A program made the position numbers and the translations under genes. Under the pieces are notes generated by a model. The model was given only the letters and a program-made list of their open reading frames with translations. It did not search any database and was not told the origin of the DNA. This document shows positions 700 through 26,460 of a stretch of DNA of 32,575 bases, in pieces. The stretch comes from a virus. Every line of letters starts with the position of its first letter. Position 1 is the stretch's first letter. The DNA is taken from IMG/VR virus record IMGVR_UViG_3300047300_000351, positions 1-32,575 of that record. One strand, given 5' to 3'.

Positions 700-839
700 G
701 ATTTGATTGTTCTTTTAATGTGTTTGGTGGTTTGTTTCCAAGTTTGCTTGTATTGGTTTTTACCCTTGGCAATCTCCACGACTTCGGATACCCCGTGCCA
801 TTCATTTGATTGTGCCAATTTGATAATAAGTGATATCAT
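684..839 (-). CDS. Small basic protein between tail gene and tape measure (first allele, 51 aa)
   Basis: I do not recognise this gene. Its ATG at 839 overlaps the TGA of the upstream 884-residue tail gene in an ATGA junction, and its 3' end overlaps the start of the tape measure gene. The product begins MISLIIKLAQSNEW and is rich in Lys and Gln, with a KQTWKQTTKHIKRTIKSW stretch. The second allele at 31546-31713 keeps the frame, with mostly silent changes plus Glu/Asp and His/Tyr substitutions. That supports real translation. The alleles end differently: this one stops after 51 residues, the other after 55, inside the overlap with the tape measure gene. Its position next to the tape measure suggests a tail-assembly role, which is inference only. 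Confidence 0.6.
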   Translation of the reverse strand: MISLIIKLAQSNEWHGVSEVVEIAKGKNQYKQTWKQTTKHIKRTIKSWRKK

Positions 840-3490
840 TTTTTAAGTACTAAAAAGTTACAATTGTCAAAATATATTGTGTGGCTTCCACCCGTCTTTG
901 GTTTCCATGCCAATGTCACTTCATCCGTGGGTGCCAAATCCAAAATGCAACTGAAATACTCGATGTCATAATCCGCCGAAGTCCCCGCCATGGCCGTTGT
1001 AGGAATCCCATTCAACAAAATTGCCATTTGTGTATGCTTATTCCCCGATTGTTCCATTTCCACAGTCGCACAAAACTTGTATTGACCACCATCGGTGCAT
1101 ACATATTTGGATGGTGTCAATGTAGCGGTGATATTGTCAACATACCCAATTGATTCTTGTGCCTCCATTGGTATTGTTGCCCATGTAGTTGAATCGGTTG
1201 TTGATGGCGCACTCAATGTACTGCGGTACATGGTGATTTGGTTAAACTGAACAATGGATTGCAAGTTGTTAACCTGCTGAACCAAACTGAACACATTGTT
1301 TTGATTGTAGTCAATATCTTGGTTGGTATCCAAATAATCTTGACCATTGAACTTGTACGAATTCATGATGCCTTTTGCCACCGAATAATCCTTCAAATAG
1401 GTTTGTCCAAATGGTGTTTCCACTGGGTTTGTAAAATCGGGCTTTTGCCCCGTAGTCGTGAAACTCAATATCTCAACATTCGGATAAGTTACCAATTCAA
1501 GGTTGGCAATCTCGGTCAACATATCGTATTTGATAGATTGCACTTTGTAGTAATTGGATGAAATGGCGATGGTGTCGTTCAAATTCAAATTCAACCATTC
1601 TCCTACGGGTAAAACCGCCGTCATTTTAACCACCCGCGATTGTGTTGAATACATACGGGACAAATACTCATTCCAGTACATCACATACATCGAATTTGTC
1701 GGGGCATCCCCCCGCAATGACAATTCCAATCCAAACGCCGTTGAATAACTCGCCGATAATGTAGGGTAGTCGGAATAAGGTGTCATCAATGGCAACACAT
1801 ATTGATTCACATTGTTAAAATAGTACGGATCGGAAATTGATTGTTTGCCTCCGTAGTAAAACAAGGTATAATCTTGTTGCACGGCTTTGGCATCGCTATC
1901 CATAAACACGGGGATATTCAATTCCGTTTTGCGTACAATTTGACCATTGTTGTTCACCTCATTCATCGCCTGAGGGGCAATTACATGGAATGTACTTTCC
2001 ACGCTGAATTCATCCGTTGGGTAATCAATAACGGGGGCAAATTTAACCGAGCCAAATTCCCGTTGATTGATTTGCTTGTAGTAAGCATTTGCCAAGCACG
2101 ATGATTCTTGATGTGTAAAACTCACAACCCGTGGGATAGGAATTTTGTCGTGTTGGATATCCTTTGTATCGATAAATGGTGACCAATTCTTGGTTGTTCC
2201 CAGTGCCAACCAATCGGATAAATTGTGAATTTCAATTTCATTTGGGCCAACGGGTAACAATATGCAATTAAACGCTTGTAAAACGCCGTTTACAAAGTCC
2301 TTGATGGGTTTTTGTGGCATCGCATCCACCATTGATACTAAATTCCCGTTGATGCCTTGTGGGGCTTTGCTACAATCGAATGTCAATGTACTTGCGGGGC
2401 TGATATTGGAAAAAGTGCTATACCCGATTGTTACTTGGTCACCAGTATGCAAAGTAAGGTTGGCCGAAAAATAGGTTGTTCCAACTGTGTTCGTAGTTTG
2501 AACAAAAGTTCGCATCACCCGACCATTCACCATAAACACAAAACTTATCGATGTATTGAGTACCGAAATGAACGATACATTCACACCAATACGCATTGTG
2601 TAAGTTCCCGCACGATTGGCCGTGTAAATTCCCGTCGCTGCGTTGTAATTACCTGATGGGTTTGTTCCAATAATGGGATAAATGATTTTAGTGTATGTAA
2701 GCGTTCCCGTTGTTTTGGTCACATAGGTGTAAGGCGTTGCCGTTGCATCAAATGTTCCTGGCAATACATATTCGGGGTCATACAAAGGCCCCGCCGTCTG
2801 CATGGGTAGAATATACAAATCATCCATTTCGGGCCTTGTAAGGAATGAACCCGATAATGTGTAATTGATGCTTTCAAAAACTGTGGTCAACATTGCCCGT
2901 AATCTTATGGCGGGGCGTAGGTCATCGACTTCCACACCACGGGGATCACGGATGTTGCCATTGACACCACTCATCGTTGAATATCTCCAACCTTGGTTGT
3001 AATCTGCAATCGGCCATAAAATATCACCGCTCAACAATGCCCCATCCCATGATGAAAGTATGTTGGTGTAATTTGCCGTGTGGTCATACGCACTCCAATC
3101 CACTTCGTTCATTAAGGTTTCACCCCACGCATCCATCAATTTTTTGGTTTGCCCGTAAAAAATGATGTTATACAATTGTGGCAACCCATCTTTGAACTTG
3201 CATCCTATCAATTCCACACGACCTTCAAACACGGGCAATCCGTGGATGTAAATGGTGGCGTTTTTCCCGTTGTTTGGATTCCATCCAACAATCACCATGT
3301 TTTCATCAAACCAGTTGGCGAATATCTCGTTGTTGGTGTCGGATGCAGGAATTTGGAAATCCTTGGTGTAATCAGTCCAAATGGTGGAAAGGTTCATCAA
3401 GTCCTTCAATTGCCGTGTGAGTTCAACGCTTTCATCGTTAAACAAATCCACGGGAGTGCCGTCAATAGTTAGTGAAAATCTAATTGCCAT
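836..3490 (-). CDS. Large tail protein, probable baseplate or tail tip component (884 aa)
   Basis: The protein begins MAIRFSLTIDGTPVDLF. It has an N-terminal region resembling tail-tip or Tal-like proteins of Bacteroidota siphophages, a Thr/Ser/Tyr-rich beta-structured middle (about residues 240-380), and a C-terminal domain ending FDNCNFLVLKK that looks like a C1q/TNF-like or carbohydrate-binding jelly-roll (ALLNGIPTTAMAGTSADYD). It lies directly after the 373-residue tail protein (TAATG junction at 3490) and just before the small gene and tape measure, so a role at the tail tip is likely. The C-terminal jelly-roll could contact the host surface. The C-terminal 288 codons are present again as a variant allele at 31710-32575. 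The exact family is not certain. Confidence 0.65.
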   Translation of the reverse strand: MAIRFSLTIDGTPVDLFNDESVELTRQLKDLMNLSTIWTDYTKDFQIPASDTNNEIFANWFDENMVIVGWNPNNGKNATIYIHGLPVFEGRVELIGCKFKDGLPQLYNIIFYGQTKKLMDAWGETLMNEVDWSAYDHTANYTNILSSWDGALLSGDILWPIADYNQGWRYSTMSGVNGNIRDPRGVEVDDLRPAIRLRAMLTTVFESINYTLSGSFLTRPEMDDLYILPMQTAGPLYDPEYVLPGTFDATATPYTYVTKTTGTLTYTKIIYPIIGTNPSGNYNAATGIYTANRAGTYTMRIGVNVSFISVLNTSISFVFMVNGRVMRTFVQTTNTVGTTYFSANLTLHTGDQVTIGYSTFSNISPASTLTFDCSKAPQGINGNLVSMVDAMPQKPIKDFVNGVLQAFNCILLPVGPNEIEIHNLSDWLALGTTKNWSPFIDTKDIQHDKIPIPRVVSFTHQESSCLANAYYKQINQREFGSVKFAPVIDYPTDEFSVESTFHVIAPQAMNEVNNNGQIVRKTELNIPVFMDSDAKAVQQDYTLFYYGGKQSISDPYYFNNVNQYVLPLMTPYSDYPTLSASYSTAFGLELSLRGDAPTNSMYVMYWNEYLSRMYSTQSRVVKMTAVLPVGEWLNLNLNDTIAISSNYYKVQSIKYDMLTEIANLELVTYPNVEILSFTTTGQKPDFTNPVETPFGQTYLKDYSVAKGIMNSYKFNGQDYLDTNQDIDYNQNNVFSLVQQVNNLQSIVQFNQITMYRSTLSAPSTTDSTTWATIPMEAQESIGYVDNITATLTPSKYVCTDGGQYKFCATVEMEQSGNKHTQMAILLNGIPTTAMAGTSADYDIEYFSCILDLAPTDEVTLAWKPKTGGSHTIYFDNCNFLVLKK

Positions 3491-4611
3491 TATCTCACTA
3501 TTTTATTGATTTTTGGTTGGCTATACTCCAATTGTATGGTGTACAAAATCAACTTTTCATTCACACGGGTTTTGTACTCAAATGCAGAATCGGCGATACG
3601 AGCGGATAATACCTCCGTGCCATCCAATACCAATATGTTAGTGCTATAAAACATTTGTTCCACTATGTCTACATCGTTTTGGCTTATCCAATCCGTGTTC
3701 ACTGTCATCGTTTCGGTGCTATTTACCAAATAACTTGTGCCGATGGGTACTCCGTATGTCCACGCCTGGGCCATATCCGTTTGTTTGAATATCGGTTGTT
3801 CGTACTTTTCTTTAGTAACATTGAAATTCTTGCGGAATACGCCGTTAAACAAGAACGAATCATACACCCCATATTTGTTGAGGAACAACACATCTTGTTG
3901 TCCGTACTTATTCTCACATGCAAAATTCACGGGGATAACAATGTCATCGCCAGTTTTTACAAATGTGATGTTGGCATTTGTCCCCCATACGCCCCCCGCA
4001 GTCATGAGTTGTTTGATTTCAATTCCTTGGATGACCTTTGAACTATCCCCACCTACCGCGTTTGGTGTTACTGTGGCACTACCACAAGTGATTGATGTGA
4101 TTACCGATGCATCATACCACAAATATGCCGATGGTGTGGCCGTGGTGATGTTTACTTGGGTTTTGTCCGTGAACACATATTGCGTTGGATAGCCGACATT
4201 GAAACCTTGTGCGGTGTATGTGTAACCCGCAGTTGCCAAAATCACATTGGATGTAACATAACTCGTGTAAGTCCATGTGGTACCAACCAAGTATGCCCCA
4301 CGAACTTTGACGGCAACACGCTTTGCCCCATTACCGATATTTGGTTGGTAGGTTGGATTGTCCAAAAAATCCCGTGTTACTTCTTGTTGTACCAATTTGT
4401 GAATGTCAATCCATCCACGCCCCGAACCATATTGATCGGGCTTCCTTTGAATTGTCCAATTGGGTGAACCTGGCAATGTCGTTGTGCCACTCCACACATA
4501 CACTTGGCATTCGTAGTAAAACTCCGTAGATGTGTACAACGCATCATAAAATTGGTACATGATTGGGGAATTACACCCCACTATTGCTTGTGGTTGTTCG
4601 TTGAATGTCAT
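3490..4611 (-). CDS. Tail protein, possible distal tail component (373 aa)
   Basis: This is a beta-rich protein without membrane segments, beginning MTFNEQPQAIVGCNSPIMY and ending YSQPKINKIVR. A tandem pattern of short Thr/Gly/Tyr-rich strands and a late segment (about residues 255-330: FLNKYGVYDSFLFNGVFRK, then WISQNDVDIVEQMFYSTNI) resembles the distal-tail/baseplate proteins found before large tail-tip proteins in Bacteroidota siphophages. It is coupled to both neighbours: ATGA with the HK97-gp10-like gene upstream and TAATG with the 884-residue tail gene downstream. A structural tail role is well supported by context, but the specific identity is inference. Confidence 0.55.
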   Translation of the reverse strand: MTFNEQPQAIVGCNSPIMYQFYDALYTSTEFYYECQVYVWSGTTTLPGSPNWTIQRKPDQYGSGRGWIDIHKLVQQEVTRDFLDNPTYQPNIGNGAKRVAVKVRGAYLVGTTWTYTSYVTSNVILATAGYTYTAQGFNVGYPTQYVFTDKTQVNITTATPSAYLWYDASVITSITCGSATVTPNAVGGDSSKVIQGIEIKQLMTAGGVWGTNANITFVKTGDDIVIPVNFACENKYGQQDVLFLNKYGVYDSFLFNGVFRKNFNVTKEKYEQPIFKQTDMAQAWTYGVPIGTSYLVNSTETMTVNTDWISQNDVDIVEQMFYSTNILVLDGTEVLSARIADSAFEYKTRVNEKLILYTIQLEYSQPKINKIVR

Positions 4612-5156
4612 CGCTTGAATCTCGCTTTTATGTCTTGGGCCATCGCCTTGGTTAATGCTTTATTGAATGATGGCAAAATCTCTTGTCTTGCCATGGTTAC
4701 AAATGGGAATGGTTCAATACCGAAATGTTTGATTTTGCGGTTCATCGCAAATCGCATCCCTTCTTCCGTTGCCTTTGATTTGAAACGCCCCGTGGACAAA
4801 TCACGCGGTTGAATGCGTTTTATCTTCACCCAACTTTTCATGGCATTCAACGGGATGCCTTTGCCTGGCTTTCTTCCATTTTGCACCCAATCGGCGGTCT
4901 TGTTCATGGTGATTCCCATGTCCAACCCATTCGGTGCGGATTGGATAGAATTTACCAATTGACCACTTGCCACATAGTTACCACGAAATGTCTTTTTTTG
5001 TACGGAAACGGGTGTCCAACCCTCACCAACCTTTTTCCACTTGGCACGGATGGAAGTTCTTGGGCGTTTTACTTCCAATAAGGTACGACACGCAATCGCC
5101 CATTTTTGGGAATACTCCGCAACAACTTGTTCGCTATTTTTATACGCAATCGCCAT
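4608..5156 (-). CDS. HK97 gp10-like tail/neck protein (182 aa)
   Basis: This small basic protein begins MAIAYKNSEQVVAEYSQ. It has the arrangement typical of HK97-gp10-like tail completion or virion morphogenesis proteins: an N-terminal helix, a central ASGQLVNSIQ segment, a WVQNGRKPGKGIP turn, and a C-terminal helix after FVTMARQEILPSF. Such proteins sit at the head-tail junction or help cap the tail tube. It overlaps the upstream 163-residue gene by 17 bp and the downstream tail gene by 4 bp (ATGA), so it belongs to one translationally coupled tail operon. The family call rests on motif pattern and position. Confidence 0.6.
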   Translation of the reverse strand: MAIAYKNSEQVVAEYSQKWAIACRTLLEVKRPRTSIRAKWKKVGEGWTPVSVQKKTFRGNYVASGQLVNSIQSAPNGLDMGITMNKTADWVQNGRKPGKGIPLNAMKSWVKIKRIQPRDLSTGRFKSKATEEGMRFAMNRKIKHFGIEPFPFVTMARQEILPSFNKALTKAMAQDIKARFKR

Positions 5157-5631
5157 CGGTAACCCAAGGGTTAATCAATTCAATTCCAACTGTGATTTGG
5201 TATCCCGCCAAAACCGAATCCAATGTTTCAATGAAAGGTTGGAATACAATGGGGCGGATGTATTGGATTTGGTTGTAGTATGTTTGTTCTGTACGCCACA
5301 AACCTTTTGAGAATCTCACATACAAATCTTGGAGGATGTTGCCATAGTTTTGATTCTCGGTGTATCCGTATTTAGTATACTCGGTGATTAAATTTTCCTG
5401 CTCGTTCTCCGTTTTCAAGAAGTTCACGCGGTCGGCCACCATGACATTCATTTGGATGGTTGCTACTTGGTCGGTCAACGATACGGATTGGATAGAACAA
5501 TGCATCAATGGGAATGCCAAAAACGCTTTGAAATCAAATTCGGTCAATGTGCCGTGAGAATAGTTCCACCCCTCCAATTCGGCAATGTCCTTCATCACCT
5601 CAAATGCCGTTCCTACATGATTATTGTTCAT
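5140..5631 (-). CDS. Probable tail terminator or head-tail joining protein (163 aa)
   Basis: A soluble alpha/beta protein, MNNNHVGTAFEVMKDIAEL to WVTDGDCV. The N-terminal helix, the sheet around SVSLTDQVATIQMNVMVADRVNF and the late beta region (LAGYQITVGIELINPW) resemble small tail-completion proteins found next to HK97-gp10-like genes in Bacteroidota phages. It overlaps the upstream 247-residue gene by 11 bp and the gp10-like gene downstream by 17 bp. The role is inferred from size, fold pattern and neighbours; no catalytic motif is visible. Confidence 0.45.
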   Translation of the reverse strand: MNNNHVGTAFEVMKDIAELEGWNYSHGTLTEFDFKAFLAFPLMHCSIQSVSLTDQVATIQMNVMVADRVNFLKTENEQENLITEYTKYGYTENQNYGNILQDLYVRFSKGLWRTEQTYYNQIQYIRPIVFQPFIETLDSVLAGYQITVGIELINPWVTDGDCV

Positions 5632-6364
5632 CGTTGTTTAATTGCTTTTTGTTCCATTTTCGCAATGTCGCTTTCGTAAGCGATCCACATACAAGCGGAG
5701 TGAATGGGTTTTGTATATACGACTTCAAGGTTAAGGAAATTTCTGTTAGCAAGTCGATAGACCATTCCAAACCATCCCCATTTTTCGGTAAGTCGAATTT
5801 CATCGACACTTCCTTCTTCTTCACCGCTTCCAAATACTTCTGGGTAGAATTCAACAAGTCGATTCCTAAACTCCAAAAAAAAAGCAACGCACCAAATGCC
5901 GTTGATGCATCCATATTCTTGAATTCCTCGGTTAACTCCGCATTGTACGGGGCGATTTCGTATCTTCCGTTCTGCCCTTCCTTGATGATGGGGCGGTATA
6001 ACACACTCAATACCTTCCATACATCGTTGGGGGTTTTTTGGTAGGTTTCAATATCAATGAATTCCCCCGTTGATAGTTCATCCATGTTTGGGATGAAGCC
6101 ATATTTTACCCCGTTCAATTTGAACCGCAATGTGAACACGGGTTTGGATTCCAACATCCTGGAAATCTTCACAACACAATCTTTGAGAATGTCAAACGGG
6201 ATGGCCTTAACCTCGGACATTGTTAATTCACAAAAGATGGCAACCGCCTCCAATTGGCGTTGAACTTCATCCATTTCGGGTTTGAGTTCGTTATACGCCA
6301 ACATTTGATGCAATTTTACATCGCGTAACTCGGTAGGTACTATGATGGTTTTTGATTCAATCAT
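5621..6364 (-). CDS. Phage protein of unknown function at the head of the tail operon (247 aa)
   Basis: This mostly helical protein begins MIESKTIIVPTELRDVKLHQML and has the look of a phage tail assembly chaperone or tail-associated protein. It has an N-terminal domain with TYQKTPNDVWKVLSVLYRPI, a segment YEIAPYNAELTEEFKNMDAST and a hydrophobic FGALLFFWSLGIDLL segment. The hydrophobic segment is encoded by a run of nine T on the coding strand (near 5877-5885). It is the first gene after the DnaA-like gene and starts the chain of overlapping tail genes. I do not recognise the family with confidence. A different frame is open across part of the gene, but it ends at nearly the same place and offers no longer fusion product. 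Confidence 0.6.
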   Translation of the reverse strand: MIESKTIIVPTELRDVKLHQMLAYNELKPEMDEVQRQLEAVAIFCELTMSEVKAIPFDILKDCVVKISRMLESKPVFTLRFKLNGVKYGFIPNMDELSTGEFIDIETYQKTPNDVWKVLSVLYRPIIKEGQNGRYEIAPYNAELTEEFKNMDASTAFGALLFFWSLGIDLLNSTQKYLEAVKKKEVSMKFDLPKNGDGLEWSIDLLTEISLTLKSYIQNPFTPLVCGSLTKATLRKWNKKQLNNDEQ

Positions 6365-6395: not shown

Positions 6396-6839
6396 TTATT
6401 GGAATCTTTCGTGCAACATGGTTTGTACCCGTGTGAAATACCTTTGCATTTCTTTGTCGGTTACCAAAATATCCGAAAACTCCCGAACCGATGAAATGAT
6501 TGTGGAATGGTCTTGGTGGTTTATACTGGCAATCGATTGGAAGGTCATGCCCAAACGCTTACGGCAAATGTGGTGAAACATATGACGGGCATACATTGGC
6601 CTCCGCTTTCTTGACTTGGTGATTATCTCATCGGGTGTCATGTCCATCACCTCGCATATTGCCCGTAAAACTTCGCCCCATTCGGTGGGATTTTCGTTGA
6701 TGTCGGTTTTGGGTTTGACAATTTCTTGTTTGAGCATCCGCACTTCTTTGTCGTGCATGATTTTATTCTCCACGATTTGCAATCTCAATCGCTTGATTTC
6801 TTGTTTAAGGTTGTGAATCTCTTGGTATATACTTGTCAT
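6396..6839 (-). CDS. Stand-alone DnaA domain IV-like DNA-binding protein with N-terminal coiled coil (147 aa)
   Basis: Residues 4-40 form a charged heptad-rich helix (IYQEIHNLKQEIKRLRLQI). Residues about 53-145 match the pattern of DnaA domain IV, the part that binds DnaA boxes: ITKSRKRRPMYARHMFHHIC, then the short signature HQDHST (108-113), equivalent to the GGRDHST loop of DnaA, then a C-terminal helix ending RVQTMLHERF. There is no AAA+ ATPase domain. It may read DnaA boxes on phage or host DNA, or act as a competitor or regulator of host DnaA. It lies between the terminase block and the tail operon, far from the replication genes at 15-17 kb, which is unusual. The DnaA-like signature is clear; the role is inference. 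Confidence 0.8.
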   Translation of the reverse strand: MTSIYQEIHNLKQEIKRLRLQIVENKIMHDKEVRMLKQEIVKPKTDINENPTEWGEVLRAICEVMDMTPDEIITKSRKRRPMYARHMFHHICRKRLGMTFQSIASINHQDHSTIISSVREFSDILVTDKEMQRYFTRVQTMLHERFQ

Positions 6840-7318: not shown

Positions 7319-8476
7319 TCAACGAATATCGTAATTCCCATAATTCCCACGAATTCCCAACGACATCATTTCGTGGTATCTCCATGAATCTATGGCGTGA
7401 TCGATTCCAATCGGGGTGTTTGTGGTTCTTCCCTGGGAATCACTATCCCAACAATAGTTGCGGAGTTCTTTGATTAGGTTTGTAGATGTAGATGTCACCA
7501 AGTACGATTGGCTTTGCATGATTTGGATTCCGTAATTGATGGAATCTTTGCCCTTGGTTACACCCTTAATTCTTATTCCATACCTGCGTATTTCATCAAT
7601 GGATTTTGGTTCGGCACTATCGGCATAGATAGGAACATAATTTGGTAGGGCTTTGGCAATATCACTATTAAGCATTCCCGTGCGATATGCCACCTCATCA
7701 ACGATGCGTTGACCATTGTACTCATATACGGCAACAATGGCCGTAGGGTCGTTTGTATAACCGAAATCCACGCCACAACCAACTAACCTTGCATCATCGG
7801 GAATCTTATCGATGGTTTGCCAATTAGAAAAGATAACACCTTGAAGGTTTCCAATCTCACCAAGGCCGTAAACTCGCCACCAGTTTGCCCAATAGTTGGA
7901 TGTTTCCGCCCTATCTCGTGCCTTTTCAATTTCCGCCACGATTGATTTGTCCAACGCTTCATTGTCTTTGTAGGTTAGGACAATCATTTGCGCATCGGGG
8001 TCGTTCACCAATTCGCTATCCACCCAAAATTCGGCAACGGGGTTGTAATCCAAATAGATGAATTTTCGTGTACGGATTGACAATTGGTAGTATGATTCCC
8101 AATCGATGTTGTTGCACTCATTTACGAATAGCACATCACGCCTCGCACCCCTCAACTTTTGCGGTTGGTCGGCCGAAAAGAACTCAATGTATGCTTCATT
8201 GCTGAATGTGTAGGTCCATGAAGATTTGTTCCATTTCAAGGGATCAAACATCCCAACCATTTCCATGATTTTGAGAAAATCACGGATTGCACCCCTTCGC
8301 AAATGCGGGATGGTTTCCGATACAATGGATATTTCTACCTTGGGGTTTTTGACCGCGTAATCAATGAGCATTGGAATAATTGAGAATGTTTTGGAACTGG
8401 ATGTCCCGCCCCTAACTATTCGTATGCGTTTACGCAGTTTTGCTATCTTGACTTGTGCCGTTGTTTTCTGCAACAT
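7319..8476 (-). CDS. terL: Terminase large subunit (385 aa)
   Basis: This is the ATP-driven DNA packaging motor and headful or end-cutting nuclease. Walker A is RGGTSSSKT (residues 22-30). A Walker-B-like strand is VLFVNE (115-120) with catalytic Glu120; Asn replaces the usual Asp before it. The coupling region is YLDYNPVAEFW (about 141-151). The RNase-H-like nuclease half starts at GCGVDFGYTNDPTA (Asp237), with further acid at YADSAEPKS (Asp286). The length is slightly shorter than many large terminases but both domains are present. Its ATG at 8476 lies 47 bp inside the small subunit gene. A promoter follows its stop codon. Confidence 0.93.
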   Translation of the reverse strand: MLQKTTAQVKIAKLRKRIRIVRGGTSSSKTFSIIPMLIDYAVKNPKVEISIVSETIPHLRRGAIRDFLKIMEMVGMFDPLKWNKSSWTYTFSNEAYIEFFSADQPQKLRGARRDVLFVNECNNIDWESYYQLSIRTRKFIYLDYNPVAEFWVDSELVNDPDAQMIVLTYKDNEALDKSIVAEIEKARDRAETSNYWANWWRVYGLGEIGNLQGVIFSNWQTIDKIPDDARLVGCGVDFGYTNDPTAIVAVYEYNGQRIVDEVAYRTGMLNSDIAKALPNYVPIYADSAEPKSIDEIRRYGIRIKGVTKGKDSINYGIQIMQSQSYLVTSTSTNLIKELRNYCWDSDSQGRTTNTPIGIDHAIDSWRYHEMMSLGIRGNYGNYDIR

Positions 8477-8816
8477 CTATATCAATACCATTGAAGATTG
8501 GTTTTTCTTTTTCCTCCAATACATTGTGGCTCATTGACAATTTGCGTAGTTCTTCTTCGCTACTTATCAATTTCATCAATGCCAGTTGTAATGTTGGTTG
8601 TTCACTCATATACCATTTGGAACGCATAGATACTTTGATGTTGGTTTTCACCGTGAGCAACGCCTCTTTTATTGCGTTGGATTCGTGGAGTTTATGGGCG
8701 TAAAATGTGCTTTTGTCACATGGTAAGTACGCCACTACATCCTCAATGAAAAACAACTTGTATTTCTCTATGGCTTCCAGTGATAGCCGTTCTAATTCGC
8801 TTGTTTTATATGCCAT
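8430..8816 (-). CDS. terS: Terminase small subunit (128 aa)
   Basis: A helical DNA-recognition protein placed directly before the large subunit. It has an N-terminal helix-turn-helix region (YKLFFIEDVVAYLPCDKSTFY), a central helical oligomerisation region and a charged tail (MSHNVLEEKEKPIF). This is the common form of small terminase in Bacteroidota phages. The start at 8816 overlaps the stop of the upstream DUF551-like gene by one base (TAATG). Confidence 0.75.
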   Translation of the reverse strand: MAYKTSELERLSLEAIEKYKLFFIEDVVAYLPCDKSTFYAHKLHESNAIKEALLTVKTNIKVSMRSKWYMSEQPTLQLALMKLISSEEELRKLSMSHNVLEEKEKPIFNGIDIDVAENNGTSQDSKTA

Positions 8817-9492: not shown

Positions 9493-10305
9493 TTATTTTA
9501 GCCCGACAAACGCTTTCAGTGGGTAAAACACCAAACTATTGCGGTAACCGCCTTCATGGGTGGGGATAATTGGCGTTACGCCGTGGACATTTTTCCACGC
9601 TGGGTAAACCAACATTGAATTGTCTGCGCTATCCATGACTGCCCCGTAATCGGGTACATACAAATTACCACCTTTGGAGTTCAAACGCTTTGTAATAATA
9701 ACATTCACCGCACCAACGATGTTTCCCGTATCACGATGAAAAGGTGCAGATATGTTGTAGTTAGAAATTGATGAGGTGAAAAGATTGGCGAACTTCCATT
9801 TGTCTGGCACATCTTCAAATAATTTCTTTTGGCGTTCATATTGCTCTGGTAATATATCGTGCATAATTGATTCACTTTCTTTTGCCAACATCAACATTGC
9901 TTTGATAAAAGTTTGGGCCGACTTAACCTGATGAACTGATGAAATGGTTGGGTAATTTCTGCGAACAATTGGTTTGGGAGGTATTGATCCTAATATAACC
10001 GACATTTGTGAAACTTCATTGCCTTTTTTGTCAGCATATTTGGCTTTTATATCTTCTCTGGCACTTTGTTGGCTGATTGCTGATGATCTATTTAATAATG
10101 ATTTAGGAACATTTTTACTCTGGAATTCCATATTGGCAAGGTTAGCCAATTTGGTTGCTCTTTCTGGCATGGACTTAATGTAAAATCCGATGGCCTCACC
10201 ATTCTCATAGAAAATGCAATCTTCGGTGATGTTTGGGGCTAAATATGGGCAATCTTGCCCAATCTTGGCTTCATGGGGTTGTAATACAAGGTCTACGCGT
10301 TTCAT
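9493..10305 (-). CDS. TET/JBP-like 2-oxoglutarate and Fe(II)-dependent dioxygenase (270 aa)
   Basis: Residues about 165-265 carry the double-stranded beta-helix signature of the TET/JBP family. The metal ligands are His190 and Asp192 in APFHRDTGN and His241 in NVHGVTP; the 2-oxoglutarate-binding Arg is Arg255 in GGYRNSLVF. In this family the enzyme oxidises the methyl group of a pyrimidine in DNA (5-methylcytosine in TET, thymine in JBP). The N-terminal 160 residues are mostly helical and less conserved. It is coupled by ATGA to the upstream glycosyltransferase, and with the ParB-like gene forms a probable DNA hypermodification unit. No cytosine-C5 methyltransferase is visible in the window, so the substrate (host-type 5mC or thymine) is open. 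All catalytic residues are present. Confidence 0.85.
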   Translation of the reverse strand: MKRVDLVLQPHEAKIGQDCPYLAPNITEDCIFYENGEAIGFYIKSMPERATKLANLANMEFQSKNVPKSLLNRSSAISQQSAREDIKAKYADKKGNEVSQMSVILGSIPPKPIVRRNYPTISSVHQVKSAQTFIKAMLMLAKESESIMHDILPEQYERQKKLFEDVPDKWKFANLFTSSISNYNISAPFHRDTGNIVGAVNVIITKRLNSKGGNLYVPDYGAVMDSADNSMLVYPAWKNVHGVTPIIPTHEGGYRNSLVFYPLKAFVGLK

Positions 10306-11018
10306 ATTGGTTTGCTTTGGTATTTTTTGTGTGTGAATTTGGGTTCATATTTCCATGGTTTGTCGGGTTTGCTAACTACATCAATGGTAGGATCATATGT
10401 CTTGAAGATTTGTATTTCGCGTTTAGCCATTTCGCTTCGGTCAAACATTTGCAATCCGCCATTGCCACCACCAACGGGGGCGCATTTAATTTGGTGTTTG
10501 CTACAATACAATGTCTTTTCTCCGTTCAAAATGATTTGCATGAATTGAAAAAAATCTTCAAAGGTGCTTACATCAACACTTGGCCTATATTTTTCGGTCT
10601 TAATAAAATATGCCGTTTGTATTCTTTTGTTTTCCCTTGTAAACATTTTTGGTGTTTTGGCATAAAACTCAAAGTTATATGGGAAACTAATTGCCGAAAC
10701 TTGTGGTATAGACATGGCTTTTGCTATTTTGTCTAAATCCTTTTCAACTTCGCCAACACCATATACATCGTCATCAATCTTAAAAATCACATCATACCCA
10801 TTTTGTTTAGCGTAATTCTTACACGACATTAACGCCCCACCTAAACCAATGTTGTTTTTATCATGTTGTACTACATTTGGATATTTGCTATACGATTGAT
10901 AATCTTGTGGTTCTACGAAAATACGATAATCCATTTGAAGCCGTTGCATAAACGGCAGTGTATATTTCGGTATGTTACCTGGCCTTCCTTTGGATGGTAT
11001 GCAAACCAAACACCTCAT
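10302..11018 (-). CDS. GT-A type glycosyltransferase, TET-associated type (238 aa)
   Basis: The protein starts with MRCLVCIPSKGRPGN, a nucleotide-sugar-binding entrance typical of small phage GT-A enzymes. It continues with YRIFVEPQDY, the NIGLGGALMSCKNYA helix and a metal-binding acidic motif FKIDDDV (Asp82-84, the DxD position). A late GGNGG loop follows. This arrangement is that of glycosyltransferases found next to TET/JBP genes in phages, which attach sugar to the oxidised base. Start and stop both form ATGA junctions (with the ParB-like and TET-like genes). It is predicted to be cytosolic. The sugar donor cannot be read from sequence. Confidence 0.82.
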   Translation of the reverse strand: MRCLVCIPSKGRPGNIPKYTLPFMQRLQMDYRIFVEPQDYQSYSKYPNVVQHDKNNIGLGGALMSCKNYAKQNGYDVIFKIDDDVYGVGEVEKDLDKIAKAMSIPQVSAISFPYNFEFYAKTPKMFTRENKRIQTAYFIKTEKYRPSVDVSTFEDFFQFMQIILNGEKTLYCSKHQIKCAPVGGGNGGLQMFDRSEMAKREIQIFKTYDPTIDVVSKPDKPWKYEPKFTHKKYQSKPI

Positions 11019-11590
11019 AACTTATCTTTTTCTTCTTTTAGGTATTGCATGATCATGTAACCAACATATGCACCGCGTTCACGCCAAAATTTGACCAATT
11101 CGTATGCTTCGTCGTAATGGTCGGGTTCAAATTCAATTTGGATGGCCTTCTTTACGCCGTCGGCCATCTCCGAAAGTTCATCGGACAAATCTTCTTCATC
11201 TAAAAGTGAGTAGTCAACCTCTACGGGTTGTTGCCAAACATCCAATCCCCATTCGGTCAGTTTGTCGGCTTCCCATTCGTTAGCCAATACATCCCAATCC
11301 CATTCTCCGAACCCAACATTGTCCTTAATGATGAACTCGCGTTGTTGTTCTTCGGTCAAATCCGAGGCCTTGATGATGGGAACTTCTTTCAATCCGACTT
11401 CTTGTACGGCACGTAAACGCATATTCCCTCCAAGTACAACCATTTCATCATTGACCACTATCGGGCGTAGGTTCAACATTTGTGGGAAATCCTTAATGGA
11501 TTGCACCAATTTACGGAATTTTTCGTCTTTGATAACCCTGGGGTTGTTTTCGTTTGCGAAAATGTCTTTGGTTTTAACGATTTGTATCAT
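11015..11590 (-). CDS. ParB/sulfiredoxin-like domain protein (191 aa)
   Basis: The N-terminal domain has the ParB-like nucleotide-binding pattern: IFANENNPRVI, RPIVVND, then GGNMRLRA (residues 54-61). The next part (QREFIIKDNVGFGEWDW, residues about 85-105) is the linker that in many phage proteins leads into a DNA methyltransferase domain. Here the methyltransferase is absent and the protein ends with a separate short helical domain (AIQIEFEPDHYDEAYELV). ParB-like proteins often accompany phage DNA modification genes. Start and stop are both ATGA junctions, with HNH upstream and the glycosyltransferase downstream. A role in choosing or preparing modification sites is inference. Confidence 0.8.
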   Translation of the reverse strand: MIQIVKTKDIFANENNPRVIKDEKFRKLVQSIKDFPQMLNLRPIVVNDEMVVLGGNMRLRAVQEVGLKEVPIIKASDLTEEQQREFIIKDNVGFGEWDWDVLANEWEADKLTEWGLDVWQQPVEVDYSLLDEEDLSDELSEMADGVKKAIQIEFEPDHYDEAYELVKFWRERGAYVGYMIMQYLKEEKDKL

Positions 11591-11838
11591 TTGTTCATTT
11601 TTATTTGGTGGGTGATGATTAAAAAATCCTTGTGTTGTTTCTTATCGCCGTAAAATTCATGACAAGGTCTGCACAATGCCATGATGTTTTCGATGTTATC
11701 TCGGTATTTTGATCCCCCCATTCCACGGGCTTGGATGTGGTGCAAGTCCTGGGCAATTTTTCCGCATACTTCACAAAAAATCGCATCCGTTTCATCATAC
11801 CCAAAATACTTGAAATATGTTTTTATGTAAGGTTTCAT
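11587..11838 (-). CDS. HNH endonuclease (83 aa)
   Basis: A compact HNH nuclease: zinc-binding CEVCG (Cys22, Cys25), the catalytic region DLHHIQARGMGG (His33, His34), DNIENIMALCRPCH (Asn48, Cys56, Cys59, His60). I choose the ATG at 11838 over the TTG at 11844, because GAGG lies eight bases upstream of the ATG. Free HNH proteins of this size assist packaging in many phages, often together with the large terminase, or act as nicking enzymes. It overlaps the HTH gene by 44 bp and ends in ATGA with the ParB-like gene. Confidence 0.85.
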   Translation of the reverse strand: MKPYIKTYFKYFGYDETDAIFCEVCGKIAQDLHHIQARGMGGSKYRDNIENIMALCRPCHEFYGDKKQHKDFLIITHQIKMNK

Positions 11839-11983
11839 TTTCAATTCCTCGCTTGTACAAACGAAATGCCACCGATTCGGATACTCCCATTCTCTCCCCT
11901 ATGCTTCGGAAAGTATAATGGTAGTCATCGCGTAATACCATTACGGCGTATTGCTTTGCAGTTGTTTTATTGCGGTTAACCAT
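11795..11983 (-). CDS. Small helix-turn-helix protein (62 aa)
   Basis: A single helix-turn-helix is visible: FRSIGERMGVSESVAFRLYKR (residues about 25-45), where the second helix would read DNA. It is preceded by a basic start MVNRNKTTAKQY. It resembles short sigma-region-4-like or resolvase-like HTH proteins in phages. It probably regulates transcription, but the target is unknown. Its 3' end lies inside the HNH gene and its start overlaps the 67-residue gene. Confidence 0.65.
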   Translation of the reverse strand: MVNRNKTTAKQYAVMVLRDDYHYTFRSIGERMGVSESVAFRLYKRGIENETLHKNIFQVFWV

Positions 11984-23611: not shown

Positions 23612-26116
23612 TTATTTGTTCTTTAATGATCCTTTGTTTGGCATATCAATTGGTCTTGTTTTGGCGGTTTCCCATCCGCTTGGTTTGAAAGGTACACCCG
23701 CCTCATCGGCACTTTTGTTGGATACCTCTTTGTAATTTTCAATGTTCCTATCCGTTCCGTTCTCATCGGGTTGTACGGGCAAGAATTTACCTTTTACTTG
23801 CTTACGCTTGAATGTCAATCGTTCCCATCGGTGATGGCAATTTACCCCACCTTTGTACTTCCAAATAGAATATGAACTTTGCCCACTCGGTGCGAATTGT
23901 CCGTTGACCCCCGCATCACCCATAGCGATAATATCCTCACGGCGATAAATTACTCCCCCTTTGGATTCTTGAACCATCGCAGTACAAAACTGCCTTGATT
24001 TGTCGGATACGAAATTAGGGCCGTACCGATAACGGATTTTGTACACCCCTTTATCGTCATTACTTTTTTTATTGGGGTTTTCATACGCCAAGTTAAATTT
24101 CATTTCTTCATCGGCATCCGTAACCTCGGTAACATCAACCAATTCCCATTCATCGGTGTTAATTGTTTCGCCTTTGCCTTTCAAATGTTCCAACCAATCG
24201 TTGGTTTGCTTATCGGTGATTTCAAATTGTACTCCGATGCCTCCCAATGCCTCGACAACATCCGAATTGTTGTCGTAGTGTTTACCCACGCCCAATTCTT
24301 TTACCTTGGCGATTTTGGCTTCGTTTGAACCCGTGGCAAAGACATGGCTATTTGGAATGCCTAAACGCGAAGCCACTTCCAACATCCCCTCTTTGGAATC
24401 ACGGGCGGATACGATGTAAACAACCGCACCACCTTGGATTTCTTTTTCTGCTAACTTCTTACCCCTTTCGGTTGACAAAGTATCGTCATAATCAAATGAC
24501 ACCTTTTTATCGGTTGCCAAATTGAGTTCTTTCAATTTGCTTTCTGCCCAACGGATACCCGCATCACCTCCCCAGGCATCCCACATCAATCCCCCACATC
24601 CTTCGGAATAGGGTACATCTTTGTTTTCTTGGTGTCTGCGAAACGCGGCCATCCTTGCAATGGTATCACGCGAAATGGGTTCACGATTTGCCAATTGGTT
24701 TGCACGGGTTTTGCCCACGGGTGTGCCACAATCTCCCCATCCGTTCTTCTCCGCCCATGCCAATGCTTTCTTTGCGTTGCTCACCGCCCCATCGGGATAG
24801 TCGGTGTATGATTCCAATTCGACTTTCCCTTCAAAATAGGAATAACAAATCGCCGTGGCTTGTTCCTCGGATTTCCCTTCACGAATTACCACGGGGATAC
24901 AACGCCCCAAAAAGTCATCTTCGGATTCACCCGCATTGGGCTTTACCAAATCAATCTTTTTTTTTTGACTGGCCAATGATACGCCAGTTTCTTCCTCACG
25001 GGTTTCATCATCAATGATGTTTCCACTCAAATCCGTGAACTCCAAAGGTTGTAAGGTCTTGAAATAAAGATTCAAATTGTACCCGTTGAAATTCAATACC
25101 TTGGTGACCGCATCGATAATCAATCGTTGGAATGGTCGAATAACCACATTGTCAAACAAGATGGCTGCGGTTTTCATTTCATCGGCATTGTTCCCAAATC
25201 CCGTTTGGTCTTTGATACCTAACAACATCGGAGAAACCACGCGATGTGCAACCATGATTTTTTGCATCGCCTCACCGCTCAAAAATTGGTATTGGTTGTG
25301 GGCATCGCTCAATTGTACGGGTGTAATGTCGGCACTTGTTTCCTTGCCATCATTCCATGAAATGATAAAACGACCTGCGTTGGAACTACCACCAAACTTT
25401 TGTTTGATTTGTGCTTCGATTGTGTCTTTTACCTCGGCGGGTGGTTGCCCATTGTTGAAGTTTATCAACATAGATGGTGCCAAACCATTCATGATATTGT
25501 TGATGTGGAAATTGGAAATCTCCGCCTCCAAGTTGGCATATTGCGTACCTCCTTGGTAGTCCACGGGTGCGAAGTAAAACGAACCCGTTGAATATGGTTT
25601 GATTGTCAATATACATTCATTCGCACTTTGATCATACCCAAAGGCACGAAACTCCTTGGGCTGATGGTTACGCTTCATGTTTGCCCAATCGGGGCAATAA
25701 TAGTATTTCTCGATTTCCCCTTTTTCGTTGCACTTGGCGGGGCGAAGGGTTTGTTGGGGGAAATGCTTGGCCATCACATACTTCTTGCGGTCTTTTGACT
25801 TCACAAGTTGGAATGATGCTTGACCCAACATCTTCAAATCCATTGCAACGGCACGAATATCATCGTTGGAAAACAACTTTTTGAATTCGATATACCCAGG
25901 CAAATCGCGTGATGCCTTTGTTACCTCCAATCCTTTTCCAAAGATTTGGTCAACAGTCCCTTTGATACAAGCGTTATTCGTGGGGCTTGAATGGTACAAA
26001 TCAATCAAGTATTGATAATAGTTGTTATCATCGCCATATTGCACCCAATCACGATTCTTTTGCTCGATAATCGATGGCGCGGTATATGATTGAAGTTGTA
26101 TAAAATCTAAATTCAT
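23612..26116 (-). CDS. Portal protein fused to HAD-like phosphatase and further C-terminal domains (834 aa)
   Basis: I start at the ATG at 26116, because it forms ATGA with the upstream gene; an ATG at 26218 would overlap that gene by 106 bp. Residues about 1-390 are a portal domain (NNACIKGTVDQIFGKGLEV, then VSPMLLGIKDQTGFGNNADE). Next come a GESEDDFLGRC...AICYS motif (396-425), a helical domain with LANREPISRDTIARMAAFRRH and WDAWGGDAGIRWA (446-532), then a HAD-type domain: FDYDDTLS (Asp542, Asp544), VSAR (Ser570), a Lys near 601-604 and HYDNNSD (Asp615, Asp619). The C terminus has FCTAMVQ and GGVNCHHRWER (CHH 760-762). All four HAD motifs are present. The portal would place the extra domains in the capsid or at the vertex; their roles are inference. 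Confidence 0.8.
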   Translation of the reverse strand: MNLDFIQLQSYTAPSIIEQKNRDWVQYGDDNNYYQYLIDLYHSSPTNNACIKGTVDQIFGKGLEVTKASRDLPGYIEFKKLFSNDDIRAVAMDLKMLGQASFQLVKSKDRKKYVMAKHFPQQTLRPAKCNEKGEIEKYYYCPDWANMKRNHQPKEFRAFGYDQSANECILTIKPYSTGSFYFAPVDYQGGTQYANLEAEISNFHINNIMNGLAPSMLINFNNGQPPAEVKDTIEAQIKQKFGGSSNAGRFIISWNDGKETSADITPVQLSDAHNQYQFLSGEAMQKIMVAHRVVSPMLLGIKDQTGFGNNADEMKTAAILFDNVVIRPFQRLIIDAVTKVLNFNGYNLNLYFKTLQPLEFTDLSGNIIDDETREEETGVSLASQKKKIDLVKPNAGESEDDFLGRCIPVVIREGKSEEQATAICYSYFEGKVELESYTDYPDGAVSNAKKALAWAEKNGWGDCGTPVGKTRANQLANREPISRDTIARMAAFRRHQENKDVPYSEGCGGLMWDAWGGDAGIRWAESKLKELNLATDKKVSFDYDDTLSTERGKKLAEKEIQGGAVVYIVSARDSKEGMLEVASRLGIPNSHVFATGSNEAKIAKVKELGVGKHYDNNSDVVEALGGIGVQFEITDKQTNDWLEHLKGKGETINTDEWELVDVTEVTDADEEMKFNLAYENPNKKSNDDKGVYKIRYRYGPNFVSDKSRQFCTAMVQESKGGVIYRREDIIAMGDAGVNGQFAPSGQSSYSIWKYKGGVNCHHRWERLTFKRKQVKGKFLPVQPDENGTDRNIENYKEVSNKSADEAGVPFKPSGWETAKTRPIDMPNKGSLKNK

Positions 26117-26460
26117 AAGGTTTTCCAATTCGGTGTTCCTGGGGCCGTCGTTGTAAACTGCTTCCAAGTATTGTAAATGTTTGCCGTTCCCGTAATCCAA
26201 TAGCCCAATGCTTCCCACATCAACACATTTCCGTTGTAAACACGAAACAACAATTCATCGGTATTCTTTGCCACCGCATCGATGTTGGTCAATGTGGGCA
26301 AATTCATGGTGATGAAGGAGTATGATTTGTTACAAGCGGTTGTGGTTGATACCATTGTTTTGGTTGGTTTGTGCCATACCTCAATGGTTGCGGTTGATAC
26401 GCCCTCAAAATCCACGAATGGTGTGAATGTGATTGTGGTGGATGTATCGTTAATGTGCAT
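26113..26460 (-). CDS. Hypothetical structural-region protein (115 aa)
   Basis: A beta-rich small protein beginning MHINDTSTTITFTPFVDFEG and ending APGTPNWKTL. The pattern (Thr/Trp/Tyr-rich strands, no membrane segment) suggests a virion or decoration protein. It follows the terminator of the tail-tube-like gene and is coupled by ATGA to the portal, so it may start the portal transcription unit. The leader contains no clear promoter. Confidence 0.55.
   Translation of the reverse strand: MHINDTSTTITFTPFVDFEGVSTATIEVWHKPTKTMVSTTTACNKSYSFITMNLPTLTNIDAVAKNTDELLFRVYNGNVLMWEALGYWITGTANIYNTWKQFTTTAPGTPNWKTL

Follow-up and report, generated by a model that had tools for sequence, protein, structure and literature searches.

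Which base does a phage oxidise when its genome joins a TET/JBP-family dioxygenase to a glycosyltransferase and carries no cytosine-C5 methyltransferase? The question is raised by an IMG/VR record of 32,575 bp, the whole of which was analysed and is referred to here as the window.

Organisation of the unit

Four minus-strand genes of the window follow one another in the order HNH endonuclease, ParB-like protein, glycosyltransferase and dioxygenase, each adjacent pair sharing a 4-nt ATGA overlap (three of three junctions). The HNH gene (11,587–11,844; Pfam HNH, 2.1e-6, above the curated cut-off) is followed by the gene for a 191-aa ParB-like protein (11,015–11,590; ParB_N, 1.1e-7, 32.2 bits against a cut-off of 26.3). 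The third gene encodes a 238-aa GT-A glycosyltransferase of the TAGT (TET-associated glycosyltransferase) family (10,302–11,018; PF20691, 7.8e-10, 39.5 bits against 27.5), and the fourth a 270-aa 2OG-Fe(II) dioxygenase (9,493–10,305; Tet_JBP, PF12851, 3.6e-10, 39.7 bits against 34.9). Three small genes separate the dioxygenase gene from the next conserved gene (8,430–8,816, minus strand), which is terminase-small-subunit-like, a role suggested by its place before the terminase large subunit gene (7,319–8,476, minus strand; Terminase_3, 1.3e-13, and Terminase_3C). In relatives, terminase-small-like genes lie directly 3′ of the TET gene, and terminase genes are neighbours throughout.

The gene identities and coordinates proposed for the unit in a sequence-only reading of this locus agree with the Pfam profiles, all above curated cut-offs, and the ATGA junctions described there were verified in the sequence. 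The same reading proposed hypermodification of a DNA base by a pathway that has no methyltransferase of its own, and this is well supported; the three-gene unit (ParB-like protein, glycosyltransferase and dioxygenase) probably oxidises a base in the phage’s own DNA and adds a sugar.

Genome completeness and the methyltransferase search

The two ends of the contig (1–1,701 and 30,875–32,575) overlap over 1,701 bp with 92.7% identity; 106 of the 124 mismatches fall inside two reading frames, 91 of them at third codon positions. The contig makes one full circuit of a ~30.9-kb genome and then repeats its start as a strain variant; the genome is essentially complete. A complete relative, G010 (31,904 bp, with an exact 127-bp terminal repeat), carries nearly the same genes, gene by gene.

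Profile searches gave no C5 methyltransferase (PF00145) in the window record, with controls detected, or in G010, and no N4/N6 methyltransferase (PF01555) in either genome. Thymidylate-synthase-type hydroxymethylases (PF00303) were found in none of 24 records that included the window and G010, again with controls detected. Because the contig closes on itself and G010 is complete, the lack of a methyltransferase belongs to the genome itself, and an incomplete window that hides such a gene is ruled out. The absence had previously been reported for ‘about 31 kb’; it holds, and the caveat of size can be removed, as the genome closes on itself.

Catalytic site and predicted fold of the dioxygenase

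The catalytic stretch of the dioxygenase (9,541–9,738, minus strand) contains H190 and D192 (9,730–9,738), N195, H241 (9,583–9,585) and R255 (9,541–9,543). Among the aligned relatives that cover these positions, H190 and D192 are conserved in 170 of 170 and H241 and R255 in 167 of 167 (three truncated sequences are gapped), and all five residues are identical in every covering phage TET, actinophage proteins included. The HxD...H...R set noted from the translation alone is thus present and the metal/2OG site intact. N195 lies three residues after the HxD aspartate, a position occupied by Asn in TET2 and Asp in NgTet1; Asn is compatible with either base here, and N195 is therefore uninformative on substrate.

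An AF2 model of the protein (mean pLDDT 76, pTM 0.78) matched CcTet best in Foldseek (3.3e-6), then CMD1, TET2 and NgTet1, with other 2OG enzymes appearing only at E > 0.09; the predicted double-stranded beta-helix fold is nearest to TET enzymes. No JBP catalytic domain was among the solved structures matched. The TET alignment found no relative when the PDB was searched by sequence. By Pfam, the 270-aa protein consists of the oxygenase domain only, with neither the J-binding domain of JBP1 nor the SNF2 domain of JBP2.

Phage TET/JBP proteins are widely labelled ‘queuine tRNA-ribosyltransferase’ (phrog_6059 and many GenBank entries). For the TET family studied here this label is contradicted by Pfam, catalytic residues and fold, and it looks like a propagated annotation error.

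ParB-like protein and HNH endonuclease

Two IMG/VR scans for relatives yielded 160 loci; 171 TET loci were compared, and 141 loci were scored for the slot between ParB and TET. A ParB-like gene is within reach in 147 of the 171 TET loci, and most of the remaining loci sit on contigs that stop short of that point. ParB identity tracks TET-core identity along the whole length of the protein (r 0.60–0.83), marking it as the constant partner of the TET core. The sequence-only reading held that the ParB-like protein stops at the point where a methyltransferase domain usually follows in related proteins. This was wrong: its conserved C-terminal stretch also closes the proteins of relatives, including that of the cultured phage P-HS2, the short form is normal in the family, and a truncated ParB-methyltransferase can be rejected. 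A general scan, not specific for ParA, gave no ParA-like match among the window ORFs scanned. The HNH gene had been described as linked to the unit by an ATGA junction; it does overlap the ParB start by ATGA, but it is no constant partner, being a neighbour in 37 of 171 loci.

Exchange of the finishing gene

The IDDD motif of the glycosyltransferase includes D83 and D84, both invariant in 21 diverse homologues, and a model of the protein (pLDDT 81, pTM 0.82) matches GT-A folds, in line with the TAGT profile and with the GT-A assignment made before from sequence motifs. This decoration gene is one of many found between ParB and TET. In the 141 scored loci (family numbers are cluster labels of this analysis), the slot holds an FkbM-type methyltransferase in 74, a glycosyltransferase of family 13 (GT13) in 25 and of family 22 (GT22) in 16, window included. 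Less common contents are GT13 with a sulfotransferase (5; Sulfotransfer_2, 2.2e-15), another GT-like protein (4), a protein like the amino-acid:DNA transferase ADDT with a P-loop kinase (4), GATase, GNAT, ADDT and kinase together (1), GT13 with a nucleotidyltransferase/HAD/kinase fusion (1) and one further type (1); in 10 loci the slot is empty. A profile search found no ADDT in the window.

Correlation with TET-core identity along the length of these proteins is weak for the glycosyltransferases (0.21–0.44 for GT13, 0.15–0.56 for GT22) and uneven for FkbM (0.22–0.86). TETs that are 93% identical are accompanied by an FkbM methyltransferase in one locus (L026) and by ADDT (9.5e-12) and a P-loop kinase in another (L030). 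In L061–L065 a P-loop kinase and an ADDT-like protein occupy the slot, the latter sharing PHROG 3271 with the L030 ADDT. As judged from these sequence comparisons, ParB and the TET core form a frame in which the finishing gene is swapped between phages.

Some finishing sets are elaborate. That of L030 (1,809–4,113) comprises four genes, encoding a class II glutamine amidotransferase, a GNAT acetyltransferase, ADDT and a P-loop kinase, and suggests an aminated and acetylated base. In L050, L051 and L053–L055 a glycosyltransferase and then a sulfotransferase lie between ParB and TET, making a sulfated sugar on DNA possible; we know of no described phage base with a sulfated sugar. L035 has a 598-aa fusion (4,127–5,923; nucleotidyltransferase, HAD and aminoglycoside-phosphotransferase-like) inserted after the glycosyltransferase gene, while L034, with an identical TET, has no such fusion.

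An exchangeable segment within the dioxygenase

Exchange also extends into the dioxygenase itself, at residues ~66–128 (9,922–10,110, minus strand). When identity in 24-residue windows was set against core identity for 58 non-redundant TETs (1,653 pairs), most windows correlated at 0.73–0.93, those starting at residues 61 to 109 at only 0.04–0.31, and a smaller dip (0.44) was seen at residues 205–228. Forcing the core tree on the segment (66 columns) cost 824 log-likelihood units; the cost was 153 when it was imposed on the N-terminal part (75 columns) and 32 when it was imposed on one half of the core (61 columns), values obtained with few AU replicates (a programme warning) and with an N-terminal control that is itself mildly incongruent.

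The window TET and that of its complete relative G010 (locus L011) are 97% identical before the segment, 31% within it and 95% after it. L011 and L048 are 72% identical in the segment and only 75% in the core, and a class marked by SEMKRSSGL is common to the freshwater TETs L072 and L080 and to P-HS2, with 86% identity in the segment and 52–54% in the core. By these comparisons the segment falls into discrete allele classes that jump between backgrounds, with a history independent of the rest of the TET. As classes stay nearly intact across cores 50–75% identical, selection plus exchange would be needed, not drift.

In this it resembles the exchangeable target-recognition segments of restriction-modification enzymes, and by analogy may have a similar function. 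An unconstrained diversifying linker with no role in target recognition would fit the low model confidence at residues 70–100 and the frequent length changes in the alignment; it is the less likely reading, as it does not account for discrete classes, such as SEMKRSSGL, nearly intact across such divergent cores. A tie between segment class and decoration gene was considered and rejected, as the larger classes are found with several cassettes. We know of no earlier hint of recombining target recognition within a TET/JBP enzyme, and a segment of this kind would offer tools for site-selective oxidation of T or 5mC. What seems new here is the extent of finishing-gene exchange round one TET lineage, the evidence for dispensability of the C5 methyltransferase and, above all, this segment.

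Relationship to known systems and likely host

The nearest cultured relatives are the Prochlorococcus phages P-HS2, MED4-184 and MED4-117 (near twins), with a TET 49.6% identical to that of the window. Their locus has the same ParB-X-TET order, but X is an FkbM-type methyltransferase in these phages and a glycosyltransferase in the window. More distant ParB-TET pairs occur in phages of Mycobacterium, Gordonia, Rhodococcus, Microbacterium and Arthrobacter, and ParB-TET-terminase units are already annotated in actinophages. This association, together with TET-linked glycosyltransferases, was reportedly predicted by Iyer and colleagues in 2009 and 2013. The modules of Mycobacterium phages Nigel and Prince, Gordonia phage LittleMunchkin and Rhodococcus phage Tonitrus resemble the window in the ParB-TET pair, the terminase-adjoining order and the catalytic set, and actinophage modules, like the window, have no C5 methyltransferase or thymidylate-synthase homologue (six genomes tested, Prince not among them). 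However, in these modules TET is followed by the finishing genes, which do not occupy the ParB-TET interval, and their TETs, unlike that of the window, have no long exchangeable segment.

The kinetoplastid base J pathway (JBP1/JBP2 and JGT) also combines a TET/JBP-family dioxygenase with a glycosyltransferase and would have the same workings if thymine is the substrate here, but the window differs in having no J-binding or SNF2 domain, in its ParB partner and in its phage setting. In phages SP10, phiW-14, M6 and ViI, 5hmU is produced as a nucleotide by an enzyme resembling thymidylate synthase, which has no PF00303 counterpart in the window; these phages are not known to use a TET. Kinase and ADDT families of these thymidine hypermodification phages are shared with some window relatives. 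The pathways of such phages were reportedly described by Lee et al. in 2018 and 2021. The 5mC pathway of other phages (C5 methyltransferase, TET and glycosyltransferases; Burke et al. 2021) likewise links a phage TET to glycosyltransferases, but its defining C5 methyltransferase is absent from the window.

A scan of bacterial genomes for hosts gave no more than three phage-like contigs, which belong to beta-proteobacterial and Flavobacteriaceae MAGs; outside those MAGs, not one of ~790 genomes sampled from the same two phyla contained Tet_JBP. The window portal protein is nearest to those of Nonlabens phages, and a DUF6712 match in the window, a family known from Bacteroidota phages, points the same way on host.

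Thymine or 5-methylcytosine as substrate

Whether the host supplies 5mC or the enzyme works directly on thymine had been left open by the sequence-only reading; the comparative evidence leans to thymine, short of proof. A C5 methyltransferase is encoded in eight of 100 phage records (6/51, 0/6 and 2/43), always outside the unit. Its presence at the same site differs between phages with almost the same dioxygenase: it is found in L039 and absent from L036 and L037 (TETs 100% identical), and L010 differs from L009 (100%) and L003/L004 from L005 (98.9%) in the same respect. As a point against thymine, L030, the only freshwater kinase/ADDT locus in which ADDT is matched at Pfam level, also carries a C5 methyltransferase gene, 2 kb beyond the downstream end of TET.

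The complete actinophages Tonitrus, LittleMunchkin and MO526 have the order ParB-TET-ADDT-Ploopntkinase3 and neither PF00145 nor PF00303; the kinase and ADDT are both present in L030 and in actinophages W03–W05. ADDT (PF18724) and the P-loop nucleotide kinase (PF18751) are families of 5hmdU-based thymidine hypermodification. A genome paper (PMC11955845) describes the Tonitrus gene set as possibly serving thymidine hypermodification, and Prince gp2, a TET homologue, is deposited as ‘thymidine hydroxylase’. Catalytic core motifs are common to the actinophage and window TETs, the cores of which are only ~27% identical. The rarity of the C5 methyltransferase and its variation among identical TETs, the thymidine-type finishing enzymes and the shared core motifs make thymine the likelier substrate, and on these sequence-based grounds a base-J-like route is favoured with moderate confidence.

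Alternatively, the TET could oxidise 5mC supplied by a methyltransferase of the host (or a C5 methyltransferase of the phage, where present), with the glycosyltransferase acting on the resulting 5hmC, which we regard as rather improbable. Known phage TETs reportedly oxidise 5mC (Burke et al. 2021, cited in PMC12730594), the eight records with a C5 methyltransferase would suit this route, and the closest folds to the TET model are 5mC enzymes, though no JBP catalytic domain was among the solved matches. In T6-like phages the presumed role of TAGT enzymes is to glucosylate modified cytosine, namely hydroxymethylcytosine (PMC13390438), and the TAGT assignment consequently does not identify the base. 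Against oxidation of 5mC, complete genomes lack the methyltransferase, as do phages whose TETs are identical to those of carriers, and the module recurs with thymidine-type finishing enzymes. It also recurs in phages of Mycobacterium, Gordonia, Rhodococcus, Microbacterium, Arthrobacter and Bacteroidota-like hosts, so that many unrelated host methylases would be needed.

Proposed pathway

Our preferred reading, which we consider reasonably probable, is that the ParB-TAGT-TET unit modifies the phage’s own DNA by thymine hydroxylation followed by sugar addition, giving a base-J-like mark against host nucleases. The unit, with its genes beside those of the terminase, would act after replication, around packaging. 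The ParB-like protein would help to bring the dioxygenase to phage DNA, where JBP-type chemistry on the thymine methyl group would yield 5-hydroxymethyluracil at sites chosen partly by the exchangeable segment. The glycosyltransferase would then place a sugar on the hydroxymethyl group, and the resulting base-J-like modification would protect the DNA from host nucleases. In other phages this oxidised base may be passed on to different finishing enzymes.

A broader scheme is put forward more tentatively, as possible but short of probable: a ParB-guided TET would hydroxylate thymine in DNA at segment-set sites, an interchangeable finishing enzyme would add a sugar, methyl, sugar-sulfate or amino acid group, and target and group would recombine independently.

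It is very unlikely that there is no pathway, with the dioxygenase erasing or changing host marks (5mC, 6mA) or oxidising RNA and the transferases acting elsewhere (glycans, proteins): structures of CcTet, the top Foldseek match, exist with 5mC DNA and with 6mA DNA, and ~7% of loci (10/141) have ParB and TET with no finishing gene between them, but the genes are coupled by ATGA overlaps, ~130 of 141 loci have a finishing gene in the same slot, drawn from several unrelated transferase families, and members of the ADDT and 5hmU-kinase families act on DNA bases.

Should thymine be the substrate, hydroxymethyluracil would be made on finished DNA instead of at the nucleotide level, and the unit would represent a bacterial-virus counterpart, and possible evolutionary source, of kinetoplastid base J.

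Other features of the phage genome

The portal protein (23,612–26,218, minus strand) is 868 aa long, compared with 626 aa in G010, and has extra domains, among them a stretch of ~98 aa, up to 56% identical to halovirus head/portal proteins, followed by an HAD-phosphatase-like stretch (KVSFDYDDTLS). The G010 portal has only short remnants of the extra stretch. Between the terminase and structural genes, a 147-aa protein (6,396–6,839, minus strand) has a DnaA C-terminal helix-turn-helix (Bac_DnaA_C, 3.9e-13) and is possibly a DnaA-box-binding phage regulator. A tail-region protein (836–3,490, minus strand) contains a C1q-like domain (1.7e-7) and is a possible receptor-binding tip.
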